Shown: positions 4,141 through 26,233 of the stretch, one piece after another | How the letters are laid out: every line of letters starts with the position of its first letter | How positions within the stretch are numbered: position 1 is the stretch's first letter | NCBI GenBank assembly: GCA_019359725.1 | Contig: JAHHGR010000003.1 | Coordinates: 62,001-126,000, forward strand | Direction of reading: 5' to 3' | Length of the DNA stretch: 64,000 nt | Source: Aphanocapsa lilacina HA4352-LM1 | GTDB taxonomy: Bacteria; Cyanobacteriota; Cyanobacteriia; Gloeobacterales; Gloeobacteraceae | Program-made: the position numbers and the translations under genes | The notes under the pieces: generated by a model | What the model was told of the DNA's origin: nothing | What the model saw: only the letters and a program-made list of their open reading frames with translations | Database searches by the model: none

Positions 4141-6075
<1,935 letters not shown>

Positions 6076-9693: not shown

Positions 9694-9702
9694 CTTTTTA
9701 TC

Positions 9703-10779
9703 ATGCTTTCCATCGCCGATATCGAGGAACTGCTCGGCAAAGAAGCCGAGCAGCTGCTGACGCACGAGTGCAAAGGCATCGTCAAAGACCAGCTCCATCT
9801 GCCCGGTGCCGACTGGGTGGACCGGATCATGACCCACTCCGACCGGCCGATCCCGGTGTTGCGCAGCCTGCAGGCGCTGCTCGATCACGGCCGCTTGGGC
9901 GGAACCGGGTACCTTTCGATCTTGCCCGTCGACCAGGGCATCGAGCACTCGGCGGGGGCATCTTTTGCCCCCAACCCGATGTACTTCGACCCTGAGAACA
10001 TCGTGCGCCTGGCCGTCGAAGGCGGCTGCAACGCCGTGGCTTCTACCCTTGGCGTGTTGGGGATGGTGGCGCGCAAGTACGCCCACAAAATTCCATTTAT
10101 CCTCAAGCTCAACCACAACGAACTACTCACCTACCCCAACAAGTCCGAGCAGATTCTTTTTGCAAGCGTCAGACAGGCCCGCGATATGGGAGCGGTGGCC
10201 GTGGGAGCGACGATCTATTTTGGCTCACAAGATAGCGGTCGCGAGATTGTCGAAATTTCCCAGGCGTTCCAGTTGGCCCACGAGCTGGGTATGGCCACGA
10301 TCCTCTGGTGCTATTTGCGCAACAACGCGTTTAAGATCGACGGCATCGATTACCACACCAGCGCCGATCTGACCGGCCAGGCCAATCACCTCGGGGTGAC
10401 CATCGAGGCCGACATCGTCAAGCAAAAATTGCCCACCGTCAACGGCGGCTACGAAAAGCTCAACGTCCAGTCGAGCTACGGCCGCTTCGACAGGCGCATC
10501 TACACCGAACTGACCACCGCTCGCCCCATCGACCTCACCCGCTACCAGGTGGCCAACGGCTATATGGGCCGCATCGGTCTGATCAACTCGGGGGGCGAAT
10601 CCGGCAAGGGTGACGACCGCGCCGAGGCGGTGCACACCGCCGTCATCAACAAGCGCGCCGGCGGCATGGGCCTCATCAGCGGCCGCAAGACTTTTCAGCA
10701 GAAGACCCTCGCCGACGGTGTGGCCATCTTCCACGCCATCCAGGATGTCTATCTCAACCAGGACGTGACGATCGCCTAG
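9703..10779 (+). CDS. fda: Class I fructose-bisphosphate aldolase (FbaB/DhnA type)
   Basis: Cleaves fructose 1,6-bisphosphate to dihydroxyacetone phosphate and glyceraldehyde 3-phosphate through a Schiff base, in glycolysis and, in reverse, the Calvin cycle. The 358-residue protein has [15 protein letters not shown] (start of the barrel), [10 protein letters not shown] on a central strand, GATIYFGS and the phosphate-binding [18 protein letters not shown]. This is the metal-independent archaeal-type class I enzyme, not the class II enzyme many cyanobacteria also have. A CCCAT/ATGGG hairpin lies at about 10791-10805 after the stop. Confidence 0.9.
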
Positions 10780-10825
10780 AGTCCTCCACCCCATCTAAAA
10801 TGGGCGACAGACGGAAGGGCGGATC

Positions 10826-11383
10826 ATGACGACGATTGACGAATTTTTTGGCGCTTGCCTGGGAAAGTGGTCCATCGAGCGCACTTATCACTACCTGGGC
10901 GATGCCGAGGGCCGGGTGGAGCGCTCCCACACCAACTACGACATCCGCCCCCTCACCGCCGAACGCCAGTGCAAAGTGCTCGCCGACAACGAACGGCCCG
11001 CCGATACCCCGGAACCGCTCTACGGCTTTTATCTAGCCTTCGACACGCTTTCAGAGCGAGGCGAAAAGGTAGCGATGGATCTCAACATCCTTTTTGTGCC
11101 GGCCCGGCTCGAGGCGGGCGGATACCTCGAAGGCGACTATTTGCGCGACCGGGCTTACGAAGAGGCCCGGCCGATGGTGTCCCACTTTCGCTACGACCCC
11201 GAGCGCGCCGAACTGCGGATGACGACGCGCTACACCCGCGTCGTCTCGGTCGATTCGATCACCCTCGTCCAGCCGGACCTGCGCATCCGCCAGATCCAGA
11301 ACTTCCGCCGCCCGCAGTTCGACAGCCTGCCGCTGCGGGAACTGGAACTGGTCGGTTTCGGTGTCGAGAAGAAAGTCAGCTAA
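10826..11383 (+). CDS. CpcS/CpeS-type phycobiliprotein lyase
   Basis: Attaches phycocyanobilin or phycoerythrobilin to cysteine 82-type positions of phycobiliproteins. The 185-residue length and pattern fit the CpcS/CpeS lipocalin-like family: an N-terminal EFFGACLGKWSIERTYHYL, a central LLVP-like ILFVPARLEAGGYLEGDYLRDRAYEE, and the strand pair FRYDPERAELRMTTRYTRVVS. The ATG follows GGAAGGGCGGATC, a fair ribosome-binding site. No phycobiliprotein structural gene is nearby. The exact bilin and target are not deducible; identification is by pattern and moderately sure. Confidence 0.7.
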   Translation: MTTIDEFFGACLGKWSIERTYHYLGDAEGRVERSHTNYDIRPLTAERQCKVLADNERPADTPEPLYGFYLAFDTLSERGEKVAMDLNILFVPARLEAGGYLEGDYLRDRAYEEARPMVSHFRYDPERAELRMTTRYTRVVSVDSITLVQPDLRIRQIQNFRRPQFDSLPLRELELVGFGVEKKVS

Positions 11384-11475
11384 CAGCTCGAAACACGGCA
11401 CTGGCACCTGCTGTGGCCTGTCTCTCAAGGCTGGACGCTCAAACAAGCCACCGCCGTTTCCGGATAGGCCGGCTG

Positions 11476-12096
11476 TTAGAGCGAACCTGTGCGCGGTTGG
11501 ATGAGGCGACCGTCGGGCAGCGTGCTCAGGTAATCAACCATCGAGCCTTCGCTATCGAGGCGGCCACCGTGCCAGAAAAGCTCCATCACCGACACCGAGC
11601 GCACGTCGGCCGGCAGTGACGGCAGGCGATTGTCGAGGTTGCGCACCGTCTCGACGGCCAGTTGGGCGGTATCGAGGGGCGCCGAAGTGTACTCAGGCAC
11701 GATGCGGGCGTTGTATACGTGGCCGTCGGCGCCGATTTCGTAGGCGACTACGGTGTGCTCCCCGGCACTTACCTGATCAAAATACAGATCGTGGTAGCGG
11801 CGGATCTGCCAGGAGAGGCGCATGTTGAAAGCCCCGAGCGCTTCGGCATTCACCGTCGGCTCCTCGGGTTTGAACAAATTGCCCACCTGGGCGGGCAGGG
11901 CCAGGGCGCTCTGGCCCCAGCGCACCAGCTTACCCGGGTTAAACGTCTCGCGCAATTCGGTGGAGACGGCTTTGGCCACGGCGCGGGTCGCTTGGCAGGG
12001 CGTCTGGGTCGCCAGCCAGAGCCCGGCGACCGGAGTAAGGGTCAAAGCAAGACCTAGGACCAAAAACGGTTTGAAGACGGCTGGCAGATGGTTCAT
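11476..12096 (-). CDS. Exported protein with TonB-C-like domain
   Basis: 206 residues with an N-terminal hydrophobic segment (residues 10-31, FLVLGLALTLTPVAGLWLAT) that is a signal peptide or anchor. Residues 110-170 (HTVVAYEIGADGHVYNARIV through LDTAQLAVETVRNL) match the strand-turn-strand and helix pattern of the TonB C-terminal fold. In isolated anchored proteins this fold marks energy-transducer-like or periplasmic proteins. Converges with the lyase gene. Function is unproven; no ExbB/ExbD genes are nearby. Confidence 0.6.
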   Translation of the reverse strand: MNHLPAVFKPFLVLGLALTLTPVAGLWLATQTPCQATRAVAKAVSTELRETFNPGKLVRWGQSALALPAQVGNLFKPEEPTVNAEALGAFNMRLSWQIRRYHDLYFDQVSAGEHTVVAYEIGADGHVYNARIVPEYTSAPLDTAQLAVETVRNLDNRLPSLPADVRSVSVMELFWHGGRLDSEGSMVDYLSTLPDGRLIQPRTGSL

Positions 12097-12224
12097 TGCG
12101 AGATCCCCGGCGGTAAATCTGTGGAGAGGTGAGAGTGACTCGGCTTTTGCGCCTGTGCTGCCAGAATACTACACGCTTCCAAAGCCGTGCCCCCCCGTGC
12201 AGACGGAATCCCCGGGTACGCAAA

Positions 12225-12250
12225 CGGGGCACCCCAGGTGGGATGCCCCG
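12225..12250 (-). terminator. Terminator of the Ser/Thr/Pro-rich exported protein gene
   Basis: CGGGGCA and TGCCCCG flank a 12-nt centre that itself can pair partly (CCC with GGG). Read on the minus strand it is followed by TTTGCG, a short T-run. It lies 23 nt after the stop of the gene at 12273-12701. Confidence 0.65.
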
Positions 12251-12272
12251 CTCAAGCCGCTTGTGTTAATCG

Positions 12273-12701
12273 CTACGGCTTCGGATTGGCTTCACCTGCC
12301 GGGCGGGTGGTGTTCTTGGGCTGCAAGTTCGGGTCGGTGTTGCTGACACCGGAGGGCGGATCGGCGATTACAGCGTCGTTGGACCGACTCTGGCTCTCAG
12401 GTAGGTCAGTGGTGCGCGTGACATCGACGCGATCGGAGCTTTTGCCCATGCCCGAGGAGGTCTTGTTCGGCTTTTTCGTCGAGCTGTCGGGCTTCATCGG
12501 GTCCATCGCACTGGCGGGGCGCTCGGCGGCGGGCGTCCCGGCGCTCGGGGTGGTGTCGGTGCGCGGCTCGGTGCTGCGCGGGCCGCTTGTGTCGTTCGTC
12601 GGGTTGGAACGCGGGTTGCTGGGGGTGGTCGTCTGGGCCATGCCGGGCGCAGCCGACAGCAGAAGCCCCAGAGCGAGCAGTCCGGCGATGTGCGTCTTCA
12701 T
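12273..12701 (-). CDS. Exported Ser/Thr/Pro-rich low-complexity protein
   Basis: 142 residues: a clear signal peptide (MKTHIAGLLALGLLLSAAPG followed by MAQ, cleavage after AQ or nearby) and a mature part made mostly of Thr, Ser, Pro, Asn, Asp and Lys with no predicted hydrophobic core. It should be disordered and extracytoplasmic. A GGAG lies 8 nt upstream of the ATG. No family recognised; such proteins are common in Gloeobacter-like envelopes but no role is known to me. Confidence 0.65.
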   Translation of the reverse strand: MKTHIAGLLALGLLLSAAPGMAQTTTPSNPRSNPTNDTSGPRSTEPRTDTTPSAGTPAAERPASAMDPMKPDSSTKKPNKTSSGMGKSSDRVDVTRTTDLPESQSRSNDAVIADPPSGVSNTDPNLQPKNTTRPAGEANPKP

Positions 12702-13044
12702 AAGTAAGCTCCGTGAAGAGGGAAACTACGTACTCCTTATCGTTACCACTGCGGCGAAATGAATACACTCCTCCGCAAGAAGGAAGTTTGCTGCCAGCCA
12801 CCTCCCAACTGCTCTGTCTGGGGGCAGATCCTCTCATAGAGCGGGGAGGCGGTCAATGCAAGCGGCTGGCACGCCCTGGTGGCGGGATGTACGATACGCG
12901 CAATCTCGTAGACGAGTATCCCGATTGTCGGCGCCGGTTTTGCGTGGCGATGGTAAGGTTTAGCCAGCGATGGAGCCACTGCTGGCCATCGTGCATAAAT
13001 GGGTTCAAATCTAGCTAAGGATGTATTGAAGATCGCTGTTCGTC
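12702..13044. other. Divergent intergenic region before the caspase-STAND gene
   Basis: 343 nt without a credible gene. It must hold the promoters of the exported-protein gene (minus) and of the 13045 gene (plus). No clear -35/-10 pair, operator or hairpin stands out, and the 13045 ATG has no strong ribosome-binding site, so the downstream start could be slightly different. Confidence 0.5.
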
Positions 13045-16000
13045 ATGCCGCAGGGAATTCGAGTCAGCCGCACCATCCGCGCCCTCACCACCGGTGAGGG
13101 CAAGCTCTGGCTTGTGCTTGTCGGGGTCAACCAGTACCAGGACCGGGCTTTGCCGCCGTTGCGCTACTGTGCCTCCGACTGCCAGGGCATCGGCGAAGCG
13201 CTGCTCGAAGCGACCCGCACCTTTCCGAACAAGCAGCTGTTGTGGCACCACGACTTTGCTGTCGATCTGCCGGTGCGCAAGGCGATCGACGCGAGCCTGG
13301 AGCAGTTGGTTGCCGAGGCGAGCCCCCAGGACACGGTGCTCTTTTATTTTTGTGGCCACGGCGCCATCGACGCCCAGAGCCGCCAGGCGGGGCTGTGCCT
13401 GGCCGATACCCGCCTTGAAGAGCTCGGCGGCACCGGCCTGACGATGGGGCGGTTGCTCGAAAGCCTCGGGCGCTGCCGGGCCGCCCAGCAGTTGGTCTGG
13501 CTCGATGCCTGCCACAGCGGCGGTTTGAGTTTGCGCAACCGGGAGACTGCCGCAGGGGGAACGTTACTGGGCATAGAGGAGCTGCTGCGCGAGCGCGCCG
13601 CTCAAAGCCGCGGCTTCTACGCGCTTTTAGCCTGCGAGCAATCCCAGCAGTCGTGGGAATTTCCGGGCCTGGGCCATGGGGTGTTCACGTACTTTTTGAT
13701 TCGCGGTCTGCGCGGCGAGGCGGCCAACGCCCGCGGCTTCATCGAAATGGATGGGCTGTACCGCTACGTCTACCACCAGACGCTGCGCTATATCGACAAC
13801 ATCAACCAGCAGTTGCGGCTTGAAAATCTCCAGAAACTGCGCCGCGGCGGCGAGTTGCACCCGGAGTACGCCCTGCAGGTACCCAAGCGCATCGTCGAGG
13901 GTGTAGGCGAGCTGATTTTGGGAGTATGCCCCACCGAGGCGCAGCCGCTCAGCCGCAGGCGGGCGCTGGTCATCGATGGCCTTGCAGGCGAACAGGAAGC
14001 TCCCCTCGTCCTCAGCAAACTGCTCACTCGGCAAGGCGGCTTTGAGGTGAAGTATTGGAACCGTCGCGGCCCAGCCGATCCCGCCTCCGTGCGCGAACTG
14101 TTGTGCTCGGCTTTGAGTTTTTGCTCGACGGCGGCGAATCCGGTCTCCGGCGTCGAAACGCTGTTGATTTATCTGCGCGGGCGCCTGCAGAGCAGTGCTG
14201 AGGGCGAAAGCCGGCTGGTGTTGGGCGACGGGGTGCGCTTGAATTTGCTGTGGTTGCGCCAGCAGCTGCAAAGCCGCAACGGCGGGCAACTGCTGCTGGT
14301 GCTGGATTGTCCGGGCAAAGTCGAGCTGCTTGAGCAGTGGGTCGAACTTTTGCGCGTTTCTCCCCAGCGCACCCAATGCCTGGTAGCCGGGGCGGCATCT
14401 GACCCGCAGACTTTCAGCCGGGCCCTTTTAGATGCCCTGGAGGGCAGCGAGCCCCAGGGCGGCCTGTCGGCGGCCAAATGGGCCTCCCAACTGCAGCAAG
14501 CCCTCGCGGGCACGGGCACGGAGCTGTTGGTGGAGTTGTCCGGACCGCCCGGGGTCATCGAAGTGTTCCCGGCAAATCTGGCCTCTGCCGGTGCGGGGGC
14601 TCCGATGGACCTGGGGGTATGCCCCTACATGGGTCTGCGCGCCTTCGGCGAGGAGGACGCCCCGTACTTTTACGGCCGCGAGCACCTGACTCAAGAGTTG
14701 CTCAAGCAGCTGGCGGGCGACTCGTTTCTGGCGGTGGTGGGCGCGAGCGGTTCGGGCAAATCCTCGGTCGTCCACGCGGGGCTTATCGCCCAACTGCGCA
14801 CGGGCAGGCAGTTGCCCGGCTCCCAAAGCTGGTGGGTCCAGAGCATGCGCCCCGGCGCGCACCCGCTCGAAGCGCTCAGTTGGCGCCTGGCGGACGCTGC
14901 GGACCAAAACGAGCGGCACAGGCAGCAGCAGCAGATCGAAGGCTTGTTGCACCTGAGAGCGGACGGGCTGGTGCAGTGGCTGCGCAAGCGGTCGGAGCCG
15001 ACGGTGGTGCTGGTCGTCGACCAGTTTGAAGAACTTTTCACCCTCGCTTCGCCCACCGATCGCCAGGTGTTTCTGGATGTATTGTTGGGGGCGCTCGCCT
15101 GTGCGTCCGACCGCTTCAAACTGGTGATCGCCGTGCGGGCGGATTTTATCGCCCCGTGCCTGGAGGTGGCCACCCTTGCCCCGCTGGTCCAGGCGGCAAG
15201 CGTTCTGGTGCCCCCTTACCTGGGCGAGGACGATTACCGCAACCTCATCGTCAAACCCGCCCAAAAAGTCGGCCTCGCCGTCGAACCGGAACTGGTCGAG
15301 GTGTTGCTGAAAGAACTCAACCAGTCTCCGGGTGAGTTGCCGCTTTTGGAATTTGTCCTGGAGCAACTCTGGGAGAAGCGCCAAAACGGCCACCTTACCC
15401 TCAACGCTTACCAGCAAGCCATCGGCGGCCTCAAAGGGGCGCTGGAGATCAGGGCTCAGGCCACCTACACAGCCCTCAGTCCCCAAGGCCAGGCTTGCGC
15501 GCGCTGGATCTTTTTGTCGCTGACCCAACTGGGGGAAGGCACCGAGGACACCCGCAGGCGCGTTCCCCGCTCTGAACTTGTTGTCGCCAGATACCCCGAG
15601 CAGCTTGTCTTTCACACTTTGCAGGCGCTGACGGCAGCCAAGCTGGTGGTTGTGGGCTTCAGCGAGAACATCCCCACCGGACGAAGCCGCGGTGGTGTCC
15701 AGGCTGCTGAGCCCGAACCGCTCGCCGCACTCAAGCAGCAGGTCAGCGTCGAGGTGGCCCACGAAGTCCTCATCCGCTACTGGTCGACATTGCGCTGGTG
15801 GCTCGAAGAAAATCGGGCACGCCTGAGGCTTCAGCGGCAGATTGAACAGGCAGCAAGACTGTGGAAGCAAAGGGACCAACAGCCGGATTTTTTGCTGCGC
15901 GGTGTGCGCCTGGCCGAGGCAGAAGAAATTTACAACCACCCCAGCGATGAGTTGCCACTGGAAGTGCAGACTTTCATCGAAGCCTGCCTAGAAGAGAAGC

Positions 16001-18207
16001 ACAAGCAACAACAGCGCGATAAAAACCAACTGCGCAGGGCTCAGATAGTCGCGTCAGTAATGGTGGTACTGGCGGTTAGCGCTCTAGGCTTCGGAGGTTT
16101 GGCCTACTGGCAGACACAGATCAGTCGACGAAGCGAAATCGGTGCCTTGAATGCCTCGGTTGATGGGTACCTTGCTTCGAATAGAGAACTTGAAGCCTTA
16201 ATTGCAAGCCTTAAAGCTCAGAATATACTTCAACGTACACTTGGTATTGATGATGAACTGAAAATCAGAACCAGTAGCCTCCTTCATCAGGTGATACACA
16301 TGATAAAAGAGTCGAACCGCCTCGTAGGCCACGGCAACTACATTCGCTGTGTAGTATTCAGTCCAAACGGAGAGATAATTGCCTCCGCAAGCGCAGATGG
16401 CACCGTTCGAGTTTGGCGCAAAGACGGCACGTTGATCCATACTTTAACAGAGCACACAAATGATGTCAGGAGTGTAGTCTTCAGCCCAGACGGCAATATT
16501 CTTGCCTCAGGCGACAACTCTGGAAATCTTATACTTCGGCAACCAGACGGTAGTGAGGCAATCACAATCAAAGCACATGACAAGGCAATAATGGGTATTG
16601 ATTTTACCCCTGACGGCAAAAAAGTTGCCACCGCAAGCGCGGACAAAACGGTTCGGCTGTGGGATCCTAAGAGCGGCAAACTTCTGAACACCTTCAACGG
16701 TCAAAGTCAGTGGTTGAGTGCAGTTGCAATAAACCCAAATGGAAACATTGTGGCGGCGGCCAGCGCAGATACAACGGTGCGGATGTGGAGGGGCAATGGA
16801 GAATCGCAGATCAGCATCTCACATCCCGGGAAAGTTTATGATGTGAACTTCAGCCCTGATGGCCAAATGCTTGCAACATCCGGAGACGATAAGGTTGCAC
16901 GTTTATGGCGTTTAGACGGCAGCCTTTTTCGGGAGTTGCCTGGTCATACCGGTTGGGTAATGAAAACCGCATTCAGTCCAGATGGAAACGTTTTGGCTAC
17001 AGCAAGCGCAGATAAAACAGTGAGGCTATGGAGAGTGTTCGACGGCATGCTTCTGATCACCATTCACGGCCATAATGCATCGGTAAACAGTCTCAGCTAT
17101 AGTCCCGACGGTCGGTCTTTGGTTTCTGGCAGCGATGATACAACAATCCGTCTGTGGCAGCTCGATAAAATTAGAGGAGCGTTTCAAACACATGGCAGCG
17201 AGTTGTTAGGTACTGCAATCACTCCCGACGGTCAAACAATTGCTACAGCAGGTACAGACGGCAATGTAAGTTTGTGGAACCGCGATGGAAAACTTCTAAG
17301 GATTTTGCGTGGACACAAAGGCAGAGTGTTCAGTATTGCCATAAGTTCTGATGGAAATAAAGTCGCCACTGCAGGCAGTGACGGAACCGTTCGACTCTGG
17401 AGTATTTCAGGTAGTTCTTTGCAGGTTTACACGGGCCATACAGGACAGGTATTTAGTGTCACATTTAGCCCTGACAGTCAATCGTTAACCACGGCCGGTA
17501 TTGACGGCAGTATACGCTTCTGGAGTCTGGACGGGACAGGGCGTGTGATCGGCCATCATCAAGGCATAGGCGACGACGTGCGTTTCAGCCCGGATGGAAA
17601 GGTGGTTGCTTCTGTAGGAGGCGATGGAAAATTGCGATTTTGGGCTTTGTCTTCCGATAAAAAAACGTATTTTGAAGGTAGCAGTGGCGCCGTTAGGCGC
17701 ATTGCCTTTAGCCCGGATAGCAGCCTCGTTGCTACCGGCGCCGCCGACGGCACCCTAAAACTTTGGGGTTTTGACAGTGCAAATCTTGGTGCTACACTTT
17801 TAAAATCCGTTCACGCTCATGAAGCCGAGATTCGCAGCTTAACTTTCAGTCCTGATGGCCAATACATTGCCAGTGCGAGTGCAGACGGCACCACCCGCAT
17901 ATGGAATAAGAGCGGTTCCAGTTACAAGCTTCTTCTTGGTTCATCCGATGGAATCAATAGCGTCCGTTTCAGCTTCGATGGATCAGCGATAGTAACAGCT
18001 GGTGAAAATGGAATGATTGAAATCTGGGAAAACTGGAACATCAGCAACGAAGATCTAAATCGTACTGCTCTCCACTGGATTTGTCCCTTTGTTAATGCAA
18101 ATGAAGAGCTTAACACAAGCCTGAAAGAGGCTTGCAAGAGCGATTCTTATACCTCGTCTATTAGAGAAAGCAACATTTCAGGAGGCAGTAGAAATGCAGA
18201 AAGCTAG
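13045..18207 (+). CDS. Caspase-like / nSTAND ATPase / 14-blade WD40 protein
   Basis: 1720 residues. Residues 20-250 are a peptidase C14 caspase-like domain with the His/Cys dyad in YFCGHG (His105) and LDACHSGG (Cys156). Residues 300-510 look like a second, degenerate caspase-like domain. Residues 526-920 are an nSTAND-type P-loop ATPase: YMGLRAFGEEDAPYFYGRE entry, Walker A GASGSGKSS (Lys572), Walker B VVLVVDQFEEL (Asp659) and an ELPLLEFVLEQLW sensor region. A coiled, charged linker and one membrane segment (about 1001-1022) follow. Residues 1093-1672 contain 14 WD40 repeats, enough for two seven-bladed propellers. Known relatives are signalling or cell-death proteins in which ligand sensing by the repeats unleashes the protease. 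DNA is GC-rich to about 16.1 kb and clearly AT-richer afterwards. The 68-codon ORF overlaps its last 14 nt. Confidence 0.93.
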   Translation: MPQGIRVSRTIRALTTGEGKLWLVLVGVNQYQDRALPPLRYCASDCQGIGEALLEATRTFPNKQLLWHHDFAVDLPVRKAIDASLEQLVAEASPQDTVLFYFCGHGAIDAQSRQAGLCLADTRLEELGGTGLTMGRLLESLGRCRAAQQLVWLDACHSGGLSLRNRETAAGGTLLGIEELLRERAAQSRGFYALLACEQSQQSWEFPGLGHGVFTYFLIRGLRGEAANARGFIEMDGLYRYVYHQTLRYIDNINQQLRLENLQKLRRGGELHPEYALQVPKRIVEGVGELILGVCPTEAQPLSRRRALVIDGLAGEQEAPLVLSKLLTRQGGFEVKYWNRRGPADPASVRELLCSALSFCSTAANPVSGVETLLIYLRGRLQSSAEGESRLVLGDGVRLNLLWLRQQLQSRNGGQLLLVLDCPGKVELLEQWVELLRVSPQRTQCLVAGAASDPQTFSRALLDALEGSEPQGGLSAAKWASQLQQALAGTGTELLVELSGPPGVIEVFPANLASAGAGAPMDLGVCPYMGLRAFGEEDAPYFYGREHLTQELLKQLAGDSFLAVVGASGSGKSSVVHAGLIAQLRTGRQLPGSQSWWVQSMRPGAHPLEALSWRLADAADQNERHRQQQQIEGLLHLRADGLVQWLRKRSEPTVVLVVDQFEELFTLASPTDRQVFLDVLLGALACASDRFKLVIAVRADFIAPCLEVATLAPLVQAASVLVPPYLGEDDYRNLIVKPAQKVGLAVEPELVEVLLKELNQSPGELPLLEFVLEQLWEKRQNGHLTLNAYQQAIGGLKGALEIRAQATYTALSPQGQACARWIFLSLTQLGEGTEDTRRRVPRSELVVARYPEQLVFHTLQALTAAKLVVVGFSENIPTGRSRGGVQAAEPEPLAALKQQVSVEVAHEVLIRYWSTLRWWLEENRARLRLQRQIEQAARLWKQRDQQPDFLLRGVRLAEAEEIYNHPSDELPLEVQTFIEACLEEKHKQQQRDKNQLRRAQIVASVMVVLAVSALGFGGLAYWQTQISRRSEIGALNASVDGYLASNRELEALIASLKAQNILQRTLGIDDELKIRTSSLLHQVIHMIKESNRLVGHGNYIRCVVFSPNGEIIASASADGTVRVWRKDGTLIHTLTEHTNDVRSVVFSPDGNILASGDNSGNLILRQPDGSEAITIKAHDKAIMGIDFTPDGKKVATASADKTVRLWDPKSGKLLNTFNGQSQWLSAVAINPNGNIVAAASADTTVRMWRGNGESQISISHPGKVYDVNFSPDGQMLATSGDDKVARLWRLDGSLFRELPGHTGWVMKTAFSPDGNVLATASADKTVRLWRVFDGMLLITIHGHNASVNSLSYSPDGRSLVSGSDDTTIRLWQLDKIRGAFQTHGSELLGTAITPDGQTIATAGTDGNVSLWNRDGKLLRILRGHKGRVFSIAISSDGNKVATAGSDGTVRLWSISGSSLQVYTGHTGQVFSVTFSPDSQSLTTAGIDGSIRFWSLDGTGRVIGHHQGIGDDVRFSPDGKVVASVGGDGKLRFWALSSDKKTYFEGSSGAVRRIAFSPDSSLVATGAADGTLKLWGFDSANLGATLLKSVHAHEAEIRSLTFSPDGQYIASASADGTTRIWNKSGSSYKLLLGSSDGINSVRFSFDGSAIVTAGENGMIEIWENWNISNEDLNRTALHWICPFVNANEELNTSLKEACKSDSYTSSIRESNISGGSRNAES

Positions 18208-18400
18208 GTTGAATATGTCTGGAGTGAACGCTTCTGCCAAGAGTGGCGAAGACATTCACGTAGCGAGAAAAAGCGCCAACGCCACAACCCGTTTAGAAGC
18301 CTTGGCGGTTTGCCTTGAAAAGTCGGAGCTGGAGTCATTGAAGCGATCAACTATTTCGGTGAAAAGTCCAGGATTTTGCAGAGCTTATGAGCCATACTAG
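18194..18400 (+). CDS. Candidate RiPP precursor peptide, 68 residues
   Basis: Begins inside the end of the caspase-STAND gene behind a perfect AGGAGG at 18180-18185 with an 8-nt spacer, the best ribosome-binding site in the region. The peptide has a polar N-terminus, a helix-prone leader-like part (TTRLEALAVCLEKSELESLK) and a C-terminal stretch RSTISVKSPGFCRAYEPY with Cys, Phe and two Tyr. A radical SAM/SPASM maturase starts 78 nt later. This layout (short ORF, then maturase) is typical of ribosomally made, post-translationally modified peptides. It matches no class I know (no Cys-rich SCIFF pattern, no FxS C-terminus), and it could also be a small accessory protein. Confidence 0.55.
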   Translation: MQKARLNMSGVNASAKSGEDIHVARKSANATTRLEALAVCLEKSELESLKRSTISVKSPGFCRAYEPY

Positions 18401-18478
18401 TTGTTGATGCATCGCAAAAACTGCAATAGTGCACTGGTTTTTAAAGCTGCTGTTGCGTTCTGAATTAAGGAGAAAATA

Positions 18479-19786
18479 ATGCAGCAGTCTCGTTACAACA
18501 TCTGGGTCGAATCTGGAGAGATTTATTATGTTTTCAATACCCTCAGCGGTCGCTTAGTACGGCTAACTGTAGAGGAACGTCAAGCAGTCGATAATTTTGT
18601 TGTTCATGGTTCGTGCGAATCGAATTTTTCGGTTTTACAAAAGCTCGTTGAAAATCGCATGCTCATAGCAAGTGAGCAAAATGAATTAGCCGTACTTGAG
18701 CAAAGGTTTTTGTCGGGCCGCAATGCACGTAATACCTTCGCTTTGACCATCGTGACAAGCCTTGGTTGCAACTATGATTGTCTATACTGCTACGAACTGA
18801 AGCAGCCTTCTTTAATAGGTGCTGAAGTCGTGAATTCCCTCTTGGAGTTGATAGACAAGAAGCTGCCGGAAATTGAGTCATTCAAGGTCAGCTGGCTAGG
18901 TGGGGAGCCGCTTCTTGGCAAATCAAAGTTATTAGCTTTGTCCGATCGATTTATCGAACGGTGTGATCGCTTCAGAGTTACTTATGCCGCCGACCTAACA
19001 ACTAATGGTTCTTTGTTGGATGAACAAACGTGTGCCGAATTGCGTGCTCGACGTGTGTTGTCCGCTCAAGTGAGTCTAGATGGTCCTGCCCTTATTCATG
19101 ATCGTAGGCGCCCTTTAAAAAATGGCGACCCTACCTTTTGGAAGATCCTCCAAAACCTGCACCACGCAGTCAATTATCTCAATATAAGTATTCGCGTGAA
19201 CGTGGACTCAGACAATGTTAGCGGTGCTGAACAACTGCTGCAGATACTACAGGCTGAAGGCCTGGAAAACAAGCTGAGTGTCCACCTCGCACAAGTTGTA
19301 GCAGTTAACGATGGTGCAGCAACTCCCTCGTCAACTTACCGCTCACGCTGTCTTAACAGTATTGAATTTGCGAAAGTGCAGCTTGAATTCGTTAAACTCG
19401 CGTCGCGTTATGGCTTTGGCGATCCTTTGCTACCAAAACCGATCGGCACTGGTTGTACTGCCGTGCGAGCTCATGAATTGGTAGTAGGCAGCAAAGGCGA
19501 ACTCTACAAATGCTGGAATTCGATTGGCAATCCGTTGGAAGTTGTCGGACATATTAGCAACTATCAAGACTGCAATGGTAGACTCCAGAAGTGGCTGAAA
19601 TATGATCCATTTTCTGACGAGGAGTGCAGGAATTGTGTCGCATTGCCTGTTTGCATGGGAGGCTGCGCCCGCCACGCCATGGATCCGGTGCAACACGACA
19701 ATCGCTGCGACACCTTCCGCCACAACTACCGCGAGCGGATCCTGGCCTATATCGAAGCGCAGGAGAAAAAAGCGGTGTCGCTTTGA
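18479..19786 (+). CDS. Radical SAM/SPASM peptide maturase
   Basis: 435 residues. The radical SAM motif is CNYDCLYC (Cys97, Cys101, Cys104), followed by WLGGEPLL (GGE motif binding SAM) and DLTTNGSLLD. The C-terminal SPASM domain for auxiliary iron-sulfur clusters shows C-x2-C-x5-C-x3-C in ECRNCVALPVCMGGC and a final RCDTF. The N-terminal 60 residues (YNIWVESGEIYYVFNTLSG) are the strand-rich, substrate-recognition-like extension of peptide-modifying members. AAGGAG sits 6 nt before the ATG. Known relatives install thioether or carbon-carbon crosslinks in peptides; the substrate here is inferred to be the 68-residue ORF. Base composition is AT-rich except for the last 150 nt. Confidence 0.9.
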   Translation: MQQSRYNIWVESGEIYYVFNTLSGRLVRLTVEERQAVDNFVVHGSCESNFSVLQKLVENRMLIASEQNELAVLEQRFLSGRNARNTFALTIVTSLGCNYDCLYCYELKQPSLIGAEVVNSLLELIDKKLPEIESFKVSWLGGEPLLGKSKLLALSDRFIERCDRFRVTYAADLTTNGSLLDEQTCAELRARRVLSAQVSLDGPALIHDRRRPLKNGDPTFWKILQNLHHAVNYLNISIRVNVDSDNVSGAEQLLQILQAEGLENKLSVHLAQVVAVNDGAATPSSTYRSRCLNSIEFAKVQLEFVKLASRYGFGDPLLPKPIGTGCTAVRAHELVVGSKGELYKCWNSIGNPLEVVGHISNYQDCNGRLQKWLKYDPFSDEECRNCVALPVCMGGCARHAMDPVQHDNRCDTFRHNYRERILAYIEAQEKKAVSL

Positions 19787-22727: not shown

Positions 22728-24293
22728 CTATATTTTCCTTGTTTTCTCGTCCGTCGTTTGTTCGAACAACCGCGGCAGCAGCGGGGTGAGGCGCCGGGAC
22801 ACCAGGCCAGTGCGCAAGTACTCCGCGTACAGGTTCTGCTCCAACGCGAAAAGTTCCGTGCGCAGCTTCTGCGCCGCGAGGGTCTGCAGATGCGGATGCT
22901 CCACTTGCAGCCGTGCTATCTGCTTTTCCAACTCGGCGATACCCGATTGAATCGGACCGGTGTGGCTTTCGGGCAACTGCCCCTCAAGGCCATGGCGGTC
23001 GGCCTGCGCCCCCAGGTGGACGTTTACGCGCCGCAGCACGTCGCGCCGGGCAATAGCCTCTAGATACTGCTCCACACCGGGGTCGCAGTGGAGCAACCCC
23101 GAGGCGGCAAGCAGCGGGCGGGCCGTCAACCCCTGGACCAGGAGCGTAAAAAGTACCACGCCGAAGACAACGGCGACGATGCTGCTTCGATCGGCGACGG
23201 TGGCCGGTACGCTCAAAGCGAGAGCCACGGCGATCGATCCCCGCAATCCGCCCCACCACAGAACGGTCTGCTCGGCTAGCGGGATCGGCTGCTGGGTGAA
23301 ACGGCCGAGCAGACCGCTCAGTCCGTAGACAGCGACAGCGCGGGTAATGACCAGCGCGGCCGCCGCAACGGCGATAGGTAAAGCGTTTTGCCAAAGATCG
23401 CCCACGCGCAATTGGTTGCCGATCAGCAAAAAGAGAATCGAGTTGACCAGAAAGGCCCAGAAGTCCCAGAACTCGGCCACCCGCTGCCGGGTGACCGGCT
23501 GCATGGCGATACGGGCACCGAAGTTGCCCAGCACGATGCTGGCTGAGACCACCGCCATCACCCCGGAACCACCCAGATCCTCGGCGGCAAGGTAGGCGCC
23601 GTAGGCCACGATCAATGTCAAGGACTGTTCCACCAGCGGCAGATGAAACCGCTGCACCAGAAACGAGACGCCGAAGCCCGCCAGGCAGCCGGTGCCGATG
23701 CCGACGCCGATAGCCACAGCAAAGCGTCCGAGCGTGTTTTGCAGGGTCGGGGACACATCACCGGCCACCAGGCCCAGAAGCACGCCAAAGACGACCACCG
23801 CCACGCCGTCGTTGAAAAGGCTCTCCCCCTCCAGCAGTGTGGTCAGACGCCGTCCGGCCCCCAGTTCCCGAAACAACGCAATCACCGACACCGGGTCGGT
23901 GGCCGCGAGGCTCGCAGCGACGAGAGCAGCAAACAGCAACGGTACGCCGGCGAACTGGAAGAGCGCCCAGGCTGTGCCGGCAACCGCGATCAGCACGCCG
24001 AGAACCGCGAACAGGCCTACCGACAGCCAATCCCGCCGCAAAGACGGCCAGTCCAGATGCCAACCCGCCTGAAACAGCAGCGGCGGCAGCAGTACGAGCA
24101 GAATCAGCTCCGGGGAGAGCGTCACCAGGCGGATTTCCGCCACTGCCAACCCCAGGCCGACTGCGACCAGCAGCAGCGTGTAGGGCACCCGGCGCAAGGG
24201 CTGGACCAGTTGCCCCAGCGTAGCGACCGCCAGGGCAATCAGCAGCACCAGCAGGAACCGGTGGAGATTATCTACGAACGCTTCTGCCAGCAT
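22728..24293 (-). CDS. CPA1-type Na+(K+)/H+ antiporter (NhaP-like)
   Basis: 521 residues with about 12 hydrophobic segments in the first 410. The membrane core has SLAATDPVSVIALF and GESLFNDGVAVVVFGVL, whose Asp-Pro and Asn-Asp pairs are the ion-binding residues of the CPA1 family, and LWWGGLRGSIAVALAL in a late helix. The last 110 residues are a cytoplasmic, charged, helical tail (IAELEKQIARLQ). It exchanges monovalent cations for protons across the plasma membrane. The upstream same-strand gene encodes a TrkA-C-like domain, a usual regulator of potassium transporters, so potassium is a reasonable alternative substrate. Confidence 0.88.
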   Translation of the reverse strand: MLAEAFVDNLHRFLLVLLIALAVATLGQLVQPLRRVPYTLLLVAVGLGLAVAEIRLVTLSPELILLVLLPPLLFQAGWHLDWPSLRRDWLSVGLFAVLGVLIAVAGTAWALFQFAGVPLLFAALVAASLAATDPVSVIALFRELGAGRRLTTLLEGESLFNDGVAVVVFGVLLGLVAGDVSPTLQNTLGRFAVAIGVGIGTGCLAGFGVSFLVQRFHLPLVEQSLTLIVAYGAYLAAEDLGGSGVMAVVSASIVLGNFGARIAMQPVTRQRVAEFWDFWAFLVNSILFLLIGNQLRVGDLWQNALPIAVAAAALVITRAVAVYGLSGLLGRFTQQPIPLAEQTVLWWGGLRGSIAVALALSVPATVADRSSIVAVVFGVVLFTLLVQGLTARPLLAASGLLHCDPGVEQYLEAIARRDVLRRVNVHLGAQADRHGLEGQLPESHTGPIQSGIAELEKQIARLQVEHPHLQTLAAQKLRTELFALEQNLYAEYLRTGLVSRRLTPLLPRLFEQTTDEKTRKI

Positions 24294-24391
24294 CTCACCA
24301 CTGTCTCCCGGTTTGTGCCTTCAAGCTATCGGCCTGCGGTTGCTCCCCACCTGCTGGTGGCAGGGTCTGGACGCCTGCGTCATTTTTCGAG

Positions 24392-24844
24392 TCAAGCGAA
24401 TGTCTTCTGGAGAATCGCCTTGAGCAACGGTGCGTAGCGCGGCATCAGAGCAAAAGCCAGCACCTCGTCGTCACTCTCGATGACCGGGCAGTCCTGGATG
24501 AGCAACACTTCGCCCCTGCGGGCAACGGCGACGATCTCGCAACTGGGTGGCAGCACCAGTCGCCGGAGTTCGAACTTGCCCACGGTCTTGACGGGCACGC
24601 GCAGCAGGGCGGGTATCCGGTGTGAGACGCTCGACAAGACGGCCTTACCGACCGTGGCGGTGGGGCCGTCTGCAGGAGCGCCTTGCAAGGTGACGTGTAC
24701 CCGAGATCTGTAGTGCCTGCCAAGCCATTCGGTGTCAGCATCGGCACTACGCTGCAGCCACCAGCAGGCGAGGCGCAACCACCGGCAGGCAAGATAGAAA
24801 AGCGCAACAGTCAACAGTGCGGTCATCCCGTTGCGTACCACCAT
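24392..24844 (-). CDS. Membrane-anchored protein with RCK_C/TrkA-C-like domain
   Basis: 150 residues: one N-terminal membrane segment (about residues 8-30, rich in Leu, Ala and Trp), a linker, then LRRLVLPPSCEIVAVARRGE followed by VLLIQDCPVIESDDEVLAFA. That pattern (strand, R-G, hydrophobic-P/D, D-E-hydrophobic-FA) is the RCK_C fold, which binds nucleotides or cyclic dinucleotides and gates potassium transport. It ends 98 nt upstream of the antiporter gene on the same strand and probably regulates it. Identification is by pattern only. Confidence 0.55.
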   Translation of the reverse strand: MVVRNGMTALLTVALFYLACRWLRLACWWLQRSADADTEWLGRHYRSRVHVTLQGAPADGPTATVGKAVLSSVSHRIPALLRVPVKTVGKFELRRLVLPPSCEIVAVARRGEVLLIQDCPVIESDDEVLAFALMPRYAPLLKAILQKTFA

Positions 24845-24893
24845 TTATCGAAGCGGCAAATTTTATTGAAGCGCCCCCTGCATCAAGAAACCC

Positions 24894-25094
24894 TCAAGAT
24901 GCGTGCGTATTGACCGCCACAGCCCCCGATTCCTCCCAGTCGATAAAAATTTTGGCGTAAGCGACCGCCTCTTCCTCACTGCGGAAGCAAAATGGCGTGA
25001 CGCGCCGGTTGCCTTGGGGATCGATGCAATCGCCGGCCATACCGTTCCACTCGCGACGAACTACAATTTGCCATCCCCGATACATCGTAACCAT
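24894..25094 (-). CDS. Small conserved-looking protein, unknown
   Basis: 66 residues: MVTMYRGWQIVVRREWNGMA, a central CIDPQGNRR and RSEEEAVAYAKIFIDWEE. The alternation of aromatic and charged residues and the regular helix at the end look like a folded single-domain protein, and codon use resembles its neighbours. The ribosome-binding site is weak (AGAGAG about 10 nt upstream). It precedes the TrkA-C-like gene by 49 nt. No function assigned. Confidence 0.5.
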   Translation of the reverse strand: MVTMYRGWQIVVRREWNGMAGDCIDPQGNRRVTPFCFRSEEEAVAYAKIFIDWEESGAVAVNTHAS

Positions 25095-25225
25095 CGGTTT
25101 GAACTCTCTACGAAAGCTTGCATTACTATTGGAATCTGCGCCAGCTCAAGAAAGTATCAAATCTGCTTTGTCCTCTGCAAGGGCTAGATGGGGCAAAACG
25201 ATTTGCGCCAGTCGCCAGTCGCCCC

Positions 25226-25456
25226 CTATCGGCCGGACCCTGGATGTTTGTTTTCCATAGACCGACGCGCTTGGTGCTGTTGATATTTTGCAAACTGTCC
25301 AATCAGCGCTGGAAAACCCCAAATGTATAAATAGAGGGCAATGCCGATGGACAGCGGCCAGCTCCAGACGTCTGCAGGCGCATAGGTGCCGAGCATGTGA
25401 GGCGCCAAATTGGTGGTGTTCGGGCAGCAGCCCGACGGATTTCGCCAACCATACAA
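25226..25456 (-). CDS. Possible small membrane protein between kdpE and the cation genes
   Basis: A 76-codon minus frame from a TTG (or 56 codons from an ATG at 25396) with one hydrophobic segment, WSWPLSIGIALYLYIWGFPA, then a basic tail. No ribosome-binding site is visible. KdpF, a tiny membrane peptide, accompanies some Kdp systems, but this sequence does not obviously match it. The rest of 25095-25528 holds nothing I can name. Confidence 0.25.
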   Translation of the reverse strand: MYGWRNPSGCCPNTTNLAPHMLGTYAPADVWSWPLSIGIALYLYIWGFPALIGQFAKYQQHQARRSMENKHPGSGR

Positions 25457-25528
25457 GCGAATTTACGGTAAAGAAAACCTCAAAATCGGCGGGCCGTACA
25501 AAAGCGGGCCGCAGCCTGCCGACGCCGC

Positions 25529-26233
25529 TCAATCGGACTTCAAACGGTAGCCGACACCGGATTCGGTAAGCAGATACTCAGGTCTGGCGGGATCGACCTC
25601 CAGCTTGTGGCGCAGCTGGCCCATATAGACCCGCAAATAATGATTTTCATTGGTATAGGATAGTCCCCAAACGGCTTTGAGAAGCTGACGATGGGTTAGT
25701 ACTTTTCCGGCATTGCGCGCCAGGGTCGTCAGCAACTTGTACTCGTTGGGTGTCAAGTGCACTTCTTGGCCGTCGACACACACCCGACGGCTCACAAAAT
25801 CGATGTGCAGCCGACCAGCCTCAAAGCTCGGCTCGGCAGGTTCCACTGCCGCGCGTTCAGCGTGGCGCAGGGCGACGCGCACGCGCGCAAGCAGTTCTTT
25901 GACACCGAAGGGTTTGGTCAGATAGTCGTCGGCACCGGCGTCGAGGGCATCGACTTTGTCCTGCTCCTGCCCACGCGCCGAGACCACGATAATCGGCACC
26001 ACCGACCATTCGCGCAGCCGGCGGGTCACCTCGATGCCGTCGAGATCCGGCAGCCCCAGATCCAACAAGATAAGCTGCGGGTGACGCTCGGCAACTAGAG
26101 CAAGGCCATGGCGGGCGGTGAGCGCTTCGAGGGTCTGGTAGCCGTTGTCGAGGAGGGTGGTTCGCAAGAACATCCGAATGTGCGGTTCGTCCTCGACGAT
26201 TAAAACGGTCGAGTGGGCCTCGGTCTGTTTCAA
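25529..26233 (-). CDS. kdpE: Response regulator KdpE
   Basis: OmpR-family DNA-binding response regulator, 234 residues. Receiver domain 1-125 with acidic pocket VEDEPH, phosphoacceptor Asp in LILLDLGLPDLDG, conserved Ser in VVSARGQEQDK and Lys in LTKPFG. The winged-helix domain (about 135-234) has LTPNEYKLLTTLARNAGKVL and LRVYMGQLRHKLE, as in KdpE. Its ATG overlaps the kdpD stop by ATGA. In other bacteria it activates kdpFABC under potassium limitation; those genes are absent from the window. Confidence 0.93.
   Translation of the reverse strand: MKQTEAHSTVLIVEDEPHIRMFLRTTLLDNGYQTLEALTARHGLALVAERHPQLILLDLGLPDLDGIEVTRRLREWSVVPIIVVSARGQEQDKVDALDAGADDYLTKPFGVKELLARVRVALRHAERAAVEPAEPSFEAGRLHIDFVSRRVCVDGQEVHLTPNEYKLLTTLARNAGKVLTHRQLLKAVWGLSYTNENHYLRVYMGQLRHKLEVDPARPEYLLTESGVGYRLKSD

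Follow-up and report, generated by a model that had tools for sequence, protein, structure and literature searches.

The window examined here comprises 64,000 nucleotides of the cyanobacterium Aphanocapsa lilacina HA4352-LM1 (GenBank assembly GCA_019359725.1, contig JAHHGR010000003.1, positions 62,001 to 126,000; the genome is a 4.2 Mb draft, labeled G000 in the genome comparisons). It contains three genes on the forward strand, which encode a caspase–nSTAND1–WD40 receptor, a short putative precursor peptide and a radical S-adenosylmethionine (SAM)/SPASM peptide maturase (Table 1). All four genomes of the genus that were sampled, the window's included, have these genes in one order on one strand, and the WD40 half of the receptor, the peptide and most of the maturase have diverged jointly between sister species. 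We consider it an even call that the locus is a polymorphic peptide–receptor unit with a layout like that of ComQXP, in which the caspase would be the output.

The three genes are tightly packed. The short open reading frame (ORF) starts with an ATG at 18194 behind its ribosome site and overlaps the end of the receptor gene by 14 nucleotides, and 78 nucleotides lie between its stop and the start of the radical SAM gene. An earlier note on this DNA had described the genes as such a unit, and the coordinates, the overlap, the AGGAGG and the gap were all found as it gave them. The domains that it named (caspase, nSTAND, 14 WD40 repeats, radical SAM and SPASM) agree with the Pfam and NCBIfam matches, and the motifs FCGHG, DACHSGG, GASGSGKSS and CNYDCLYC are each present in the sequence.

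Joint divergence of the sensor half, the peptide and the maturase

Compared with G388, the genome of another species of the genus, nucleotide identity is 52–72% in a block from about 16000 to 19600, against 94–99% at 9700–12700, 83–99% in the caspase–STAND half and 84–97% after 19600. The guanine plus cytosine (GC) content of this block is about 48–49% versus about 63%. Expressed as the proportion of synonymous differences (pS), the window and G388 differ by 0.03–0.07 over receptor codons 201–700, by values climbing through 0.25–0.5 over codons 701–1000, and by 0.66–0.86 from codon 1001 through the WD40 repeats. For the peptide gene pS is 0.71, for the maturase 0.68–0.92 over codons 1–375 and 0.37 over the last 60, and for the flanking genes 0.06 (upstream aldolase) and 0.13 (downstream FG-GAP gene). 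Since pS is also raised over receptor codons 1–200 (0.24–0.39), the receptor gene is a mosaic. The same comparison with G386, the genome of a further species, gives 0.26–0.54 over codons 1–1000, 0.72–0.85 over the WD40 repeats and 0.74–1.0 over the maturase, with flanks at 0.18 and 0.27, and G388 and G386 differ from each other by 0.10–0.58, 0.72–0.85 and 0.63–0.98 over these three parts, respectively. Peptide, modifying enzyme and sensor half thus vary together between species while the effector half is conserved, most clearly between the window and G388. As a side observation, the intergenic bin at about 12700–13000, before the receptor gene, is 61% identical to both G388 and G386, and the bins just upstream of it are 94–96% identical to G388.

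Neither paralogous receptors nor neighboring ORFs behave in this way. Two paralogous receptors, one on contig C13 (window versus G388 and G386) and one of the C74 type (G388 versus G386), show pS of 0.03–0.22 throughout, WD40 repeats included. Among the 48 longest non-overlapping ORFs of the window, not all of which are genes, 24 match the G388 region, four of them as out-of-place relatives at 32–36% identity; in the 20 ORFs in place pS lies at 0.03–0.30, with the receptor (0.41) and the maturase (0.76) as the two exceptions. In the G386 region 13 ORFs match, and the nine that were kept after three out-of-place ORFs and one at 43% identity had been dropped have pS of 0.07–0.36, again except the receptor (0.55) and the maturase (0.81). 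The ORFs at window positions 22728–28911 lack a counterpart in place in the G388 stretches around the locus; those at 29–39 kb have one. In the tree of the WD40 part G000, G388 and G386 group together (100/98.8) on branches far longer than those in the N-terminal tree, and the fourth genome, G387, is placed elsewhere.

Saturation at synonymous sites is more than selection on the protein alone can produce. Its simplest cause would be that recombination inside the receptor gene brought in old, diverged alleles, and exchange by recombination is moderately indicated by the sequence comparison. Import cannot be judged from GC content alone, because the C74-type paralogue has an equally GC-poor WD40 half, yet without such divergence. 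Fast change of the WD40 half by repeat shuffling alone was rejected as well, as the maturase has no repeats and is equally saturated. An assembly error is unlikely, since the same kind of difference separates G388 from G386, both of which carry the locus on a single multi-megabase contig.

Domains and predicted topology of the receptor

The nSTAND1 domain (PF20703) matches residues 527–947 with 411.2 bits, far above the gathering score of 27.1. The caspase model NF047832 (EACC1-associated type) covers residues 24–245 with 116 bits, which is below its cut-off of 140 and leaves the receptor outside that particular type. The match to the PADLOC caspase model has an E-value of 5.1e-19. For residues 1–520 the AlphaFold 2 (AF2) model has a mean predicted local distance difference test (pLDDT) of 81.5, and its matches in the PDB are MALT1 and metacaspases; a profile search matches metacaspases as well. 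All 15 aligned family members, the window's receptor included, retain the His and Cys of the caspase dyad and the lysine of Walker A. By predicted fold and His–Cys dyad the receptor can be assigned to the caspase-fold proteases (orthocaspases) with putative activity. Between caspase and STAND lies a degenerate second caspase-like domain, which aligns with the first over 82 columns in hhalign (P 2.1e-5, probability 76.9) and in which the dyad His is replaced and a Cys shifted by one position; it is a feature of this receptor family.

The topology of the receptor and the enzyme class of the maturase are strongly indicated. In all 33 full-length relatives, a set taken without the interrupted paralogue of locus L081, the most hydrophobic segment sits between STAND and WD40, Lys and Arg number 4–8 in the 20 residues before this helix and 0–3 in the 20 after it, the Cys content is 0.99–2.11% before and 0.29–0.61% after it, and a Cys pair lies near the C-terminus. 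Some members of the family hold further hydrophobic stretches. Because of this positive-inside charge and of the Cys-poor WD40 half with its C-terminal Cys pair, the WD40 half is probably located outside the cytoplasm and the caspase–STAND half inside. The Cys pattern would fit an oxidizing compartment and a single conserved disulphide, which is a prediction. Within the same genome, where these ORFs are seen only in part, WD40 parts without a visible helix contain 1.86–2.86% Cys (15 loci, about six genes by our grouping), and those with a helix contain 0.00% (L006) and 0.33% (L018, a member of the receptor family). The L006 ORF of 557 amino acids has a membrane helix followed by Cys-free WD40 repeats, which again suggests an outside-facing WD40 domain.

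The peptide and its putative maturase

The short ORF has no match in Pfam, NCBIfam or PADLOC at an E-value of 0.1. A short Cys-containing ORF precedes the radical SAM gene in all six loci of the close subfamily with a complete upstream side (the window, L069, L070, L071, L028 and L029), and none of these short ORFs matches an NCBIfam precursor model. In leave-one-out profile searches, shuffled sequences scored as well as or better than the real peptides in 0/976, 0/987, 0/957, 3/998, 1/981 and 6/992 cases, which moderately indicates one peptide family. The peptides of the window and of G388 have LExLAxxLEK in common and end with FC(R/K)xY(E/K)P plus one residue.

The maturase has the CX3CX2C motif and a SPASM domain (TIGR04085, 50.4 bits, cut-off 27) and matches Radical_SAM (PF04055) with 40.4 bits; it belongs to the radical SAM/SPASM superfamily. 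The top NCBIfam models are all of maturases of ribosomally synthesized and post-translationally modified peptides (RiPPs), namely TIGR04463, Clo7bot and CefB, and all are matched below their cut-offs, TIGR04463 with 264.7 bits against a curated 525. The AF2 model, built with six sequences, has a mean pLDDT of 72.5, and its best solved-structure match is the thioether-forming maturase 5WHY (E-value 1.2e-16), which we take to be CteB, followed by entries of anSME, SuiB, ChlB and SkfB. Thioether formation on Cys would be the likely chemistry of the enzyme, with the difference from other thioether-forming SPASM maturases that it stays below the curated cut-offs and that its short ORFs lack a precursor-model match. 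The strands and helices at the N-terminus of the model may represent a RiPP recognition element.

Linkage within the genus and beyond

The cassette occupies a shared site in G000, G388 and G386. In G387 it lies at another site: among the 27 window ORFs with a length of 100 amino acids or more and positions up to 34 kb, the receptor and the maturase are the only two with a match in the surrounding 30 kb. The recurrence of three same-strand genes in one order in four of four genomes is more than chance. The G387 locus (L071) has an extra ORF of 110 amino acids between the short ORF and the maturase gene (4529–4861, reverse strand), with a signal-like start, a Cys- and Gly-containing end and no family match. 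In G390, a genome of the same family, the maturase gene is cut at a contig end and its neighbors are unreadable. G392 and G393, relatives at the level of the order, have a receptor that the tree places closer to a paralogue, and a match to the maturase is absent from both.

In a sample of 386 cyanobacterial genomes, maturase matches at 1e-30 occur in six, the five besides the window's at 28–30% identity, and caspase–STAND matches at 1e-60 occur in at least 58, with the two best candidates per genome scored. Among 19 full-length receptor regions from 19 other cyanobacterial genomes none has this peptide–maturase pair after the receptor. The linkage is real but narrow, restricted to the genus among the genomes sampled, and a check that the earlier note had proposed, whether the three genes are linked elsewhere, comes out positive inside the genus and negative outside it. 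Searched through the 34 receptor and maturase loci at an E-value of 1e-3, the maturase profile hits, besides the three genus copies, L150 and L131 and marginally also L142 (2.7e-5); it hits nothing in the 11 other receptor loci of the genus and its order (L072–L082). A radical SAM gene lies near the receptor gene in two of the 19 regions, a different one directly upstream in L142 and one at 28% identity 6.5 kb upstream in L131; neither is in the window's arrangement, and both were rejected as the same cassette. L150 (G284, maturase at 30% identity), a twentieth region beside the 19, was rejected as a receptor locus, as it has no caspase or nSTAND profile match. In L142 the radical SAM gene (10811–12675, reverse strand; best model DynA, below cut-off) and an ORF of 122 amino acids with a signal-like start stand directly upstream of the caspase–STAND–WD40 gene of another cyanobacterium, which may be a similar pairing that arose independently.

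Outside this group, two of 22 maturase loci from species genomes exceed 32% identity, namely those of a Thermomicrobiales metagenome-assembled genome (L028, 54%) and of Streptomyces spiralis (L029, 48%), and in both the maturase gene is preceded by a short ORF with a Cys-containing end. None of the 22 has a caspase-domain match at an E-value of 1e-3, seven of them showing less than 5 kb upstream, and weak nSTAND matches occur in two (L034 and L039). In L028 a regulator of 939 amino acids, presumably a LuxR/MalT-type STAND protein, lies 2.7 kb upstream of the maturase gene, beyond another gene, and in L029 a protein that we labeled tetratricopeptide-like from its sequence (11400–12323) directly follows the maturase gene. 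A caspase search of the genomes G401 and G402 was empty, and the same search held no positive genome. The maturase profile found, in 400 genomes of the phylum of the Thermomicrobiales genome, that genome's own strong match and two weaker ones (242 and 208 bits) and, in 396 genomes of the phylum of Streptomyces, nothing beyond the match of the Streptomyces genome itself. Viral contigs contained no relative of the maturase; 32 plasmid records have matches, the best 20 of the 32 at 23–36% identity.

The window's maturase is about equally diverged from those of G386 (56% identity), G387 (59%) and the Thermomicrobiales genome (54%). A single clade of the genus maturases is weakly suggested by their tree (support 69/83), which puts G386 with G387, also weakly (87/67). 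Several of the related caspase–STAND–WD40 genes have at their end a convergent neighbor that encodes about 200–330 amino acids and is lower in GC content; the neighbors in L072, L074, L076 and L078 have no Pfam match at an E-value of 0.01. In G388 another caspase–STAND–WD40 paralogue (L081, 3381–10916, reversed) is interrupted by other ORFs, perhaps through an insertion.

Table 1. Features of the three-gene locus, in window coordinates, and convergent genes at related receptor loci, in locus coordinates.
Feature	Position	Strand	Size, basis or remark
Receptor gene: caspase, degenerate second caspase-like domain, nSTAND1 ATPase, membrane helix, 14 WD40 repeats, C-terminal Cys pair	13045–18207	+	1720 amino acids
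Caspase domain, about residues 20–290; His105 and Cys156 intact	13102–13914	+	NCBIfam, alignment, AF2, profile
Degenerate second caspase-like domain, about residues 300–510	13942–14574	+	hhalign; strand/helix alternation in AF2
nSTAND1 NTPase, Walker A GASGSGKSS	14623–15885	+	Pfam
Diverged block: WD40 half, peptide, most of the maturase	16000–19600	+	Nucleotide identity and GC content, versus G388
Predicted membrane helix, residues 1001–1019	16045–16101	+	Hydrophobicity; 6 Lys/Arg before, 2 after (20-residue flanks)
WD40 repeats, residues 1081–1680; probably extracytoplasmic sensor	16285–18084	+	Pfam (14 stretches), Cys count (2 in 600 residues)
C-terminal Cys pair, Cys1680 and Cys1697	18082–18135	+	Pair in 33/33 relatives
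Ribosome site AGGAGG of the short ORF	18180–18185	+	Sequence
Putative precursor peptide, C-terminal ...SPGFCRAYEPY	18194–18400	+	68 amino acids; ORF and profile tests
Radical SAM/SPASM peptide maturase	18479–19786	+	435 amino acids; Pfam, NCBIfam; top PDB match 5WHY
CX3CX2C cluster motif (CNYDCLYC)	18767–18790	+	Sequence, maturase comparison
SPASM domain, residues 326–403	19454–19687	+	TIGR04085
Convergent gene, L072	8944–9927
Convergent gene, L073	8011–8643
Convergent gene, L074	8817–9425
Convergent gene, L075	9262–9867
Convergent gene, L076	8155–8778		Reversed
Convergent gene, L078	8162–9082		Reversed

Interpretation and alternatives

In the favored explanation the radical SAM/SPASM enzyme would modify the Cys-containing C-terminus of the short peptide, which would then reach the cell surface or neighboring cells and be read there by the WD40 propellers outside the cytoplasm. 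The single membrane helix would relay binding to the nSTAND switch, which would gather the caspase domains and fire or restrain them. Recombination inside the receptor gene would exchange sensor half, peptide and enzyme together, as a matched set, and leave the effector half in place. We see roughly equal chances for and against the peptide being the cognate ligand of the WD40 half; the pairing of the two, the export, and the response of the caspase, in its sign and its consequence, are what we infer. More tentatively, and somewhat doubtful to us, the locus may encode a peptide-gated, single-pass bacterial death receptor with a radical-SAM-made external ligand; ligand, maturase and sensor half would be exchanged as a set and would give strains of self and non-self type, whose mismatch or match would fire the caspase.

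Several points weigh against the peptide–receptor unit. Compared with G386, the 5′ half of the receptor gene is itself raised in pS and the end of the maturase gene is not lowered (0.74), so that G388 is the only genome against which the 3′ border stands out clearly. In the WD40 tree three of the four genomes branch in species order, and the case for exchange therefore rests on synonymous saturation. The four genomes of the genus represent one species each, and the polymorphism is one between species. The joint divergence could come from linkage drag, and local hypermutation is a less likely cause of the saturation. As to the peptide, the six short ORFs have diverged too far to be aligned simply, and only five of their 15 pairwise comparisons reach p ≤ 0.05 against shuffles; the peptides of the window and G388 are 23% identical over 64 aligned codons, no obvious signal peptide is present on the short ORF, and the three-gene cassette includes no exporter or protease gene. 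Finally, the nearest outside maturases, those of L028 and L029, have no caspase-domain match and occur without this receptor.

The last point is what a self-contained RiPP, such as a bacteriocin or an alarm peptide, would lead one to expect, and if it merely hitchhiked with the diversifying WD40 half of the receptor, linkage drag could explain the divergence of the whole block. We regard this as rather unlikely, since the link to this receptor is kept in all four genomes and at two different sites, and none of the 11 other receptor loci has a match to the maturase profile. The earlier note had tied the peptide to the caspase–STAND sensor, and a functional tie between peptide, maturase and STAND sensor is supported by the joint divergence of peptide and maturase with the WD40 half. 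Its suggestion that the modified peptide may guard, inhibit or trigger the caspase–STAND protein, taken as an action inside the cell, fits less well: the tight packing with its overlap, the genus-wide linkage and the intact caspase dyad speak for it, whereas it is the WD40 half, with a probable location outside the cytoplasm, that varies along with the peptide, and much of the caspase–STAND half is nearly constant between sister species. We consider such an intracellular role distinctly improbable, and the interpretation of the note as a whole partly supported.

Similarly small is the chance that we give to an anti-phage receptor, whose WD40 repeats would diversify against ligands of phages or predators, whose caspase would kill the cell and for which the peptide would be an accessory effector. 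Such a role would suit the match to the PADLOC caspase model, and STAND–caspase proteins are discussed as conflict systems by Kaur et al. (2020; PMC7159879); it leaves the joint change of peptide and maturase with the sensor unexplained, and the viral contigs lack relatives of the maturase. In PADLOC, peptide and maturase have no convincing match to a known anti-phage system: the peptide has no match at all, the maturase finds only viperin models (E-values 2.4e-9 and 7.1e-7), and the receptor alone finds the caspase model. A purely neutral history, in which recombination imported a divergent homologous block, or the block mutates fast, and nothing is functionally paired, could account for the mosaic pS of the receptor gene with its raised codons 1–200 against G388 and for the upstream intergenic bin at 12700 with an identity of just 0.61. 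However, the WD40 half and the maturase are saturated in all three pairs of G000, G388 and G386, and most neighboring ORFs and the two paralogues are not, which makes such a history very improbable.

Relation to known systems

The peptide–receptor unit that we favor resembles the ComQXPA system of Bacillus. As described there (PMC4008528), ComX is made as a precursor of 52–73 residues, the variable genes for peptide, modifying enzyme and receptor are adjacent and often overlap, and the N-terminal sensor part of the receptor ComP varies more than its conserved cytoplasmic part. In ComQXPA the modifying enzyme is an isoprenyl transferase and the receptor a histidine kinase; the locus in the window uses a radical SAM/SPASM enzyme and a caspase–nSTAND–WD40 protein and has no regulator gene. 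The likeness is one of layout, with no homology claimed, and any signaling by the window locus is putative. The Agr peptide pheromone locus of Staphylococcus has the same layout as ComQXP.

Small variable peptides, SPASM maturases and STAND ATPases of the AP-ATPase type also share a locus in the actinobacterial FxSxx-COOH systems (Kaur et al., 2020; PMC7159879). Unlike these, the genes in the window come without an FxSxx end, a vWA, a MoxR or a metallopeptidase part, and their STAND domain is an nSTAND1 fused to caspase and WD40. None of the six peptides has the FxSxx ending (that of the window ends with FCRAYEPY), and the maturase scores 42.7 bits with FxsB against a cut-off of 370, outside that family.

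The receptor itself falls in a described set of cyanobacterial orthocaspases with WD40 repeats, for which four WD40(14) caspases are listed under Gloeobacter violaceus and membrane helices are reported in 67 of 473 orthocaspases (PMC2853523, PMC8283722). The available parts of these two sources describe for them no peptide or radical SAM partner, no divergence of the sensor half and no outside-facing WD40 repeats, and in PMC8283722 the word “radical” does not occur. Among the matches listed in a literature search, no paper was found that joins a caspase–STAND–WD40 receptor, a peptide and a radical SAM maturase.

Significance

To our knowledge, the ligands of bacterial caspase–STAND–WD40 proteins are mostly unknown. 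In the locus described here a candidate for the ligand stands beside the receptor in the genome, together with its maker, and the divergence pattern shows which half of the receptor accompanies them. The predicted outside-facing WD40 half, if right, holds for the whole receptor family as represented by the 33 relatives. If the peptide–receptor unit is real, what caspase–STAND–WD40 sensors detect would become directly testable, and in a unicellular, early-branching cyanobacterium the logic of a peptide pheromone would have been combined with a caspase, so that kin recognition would be tied to regulated death.

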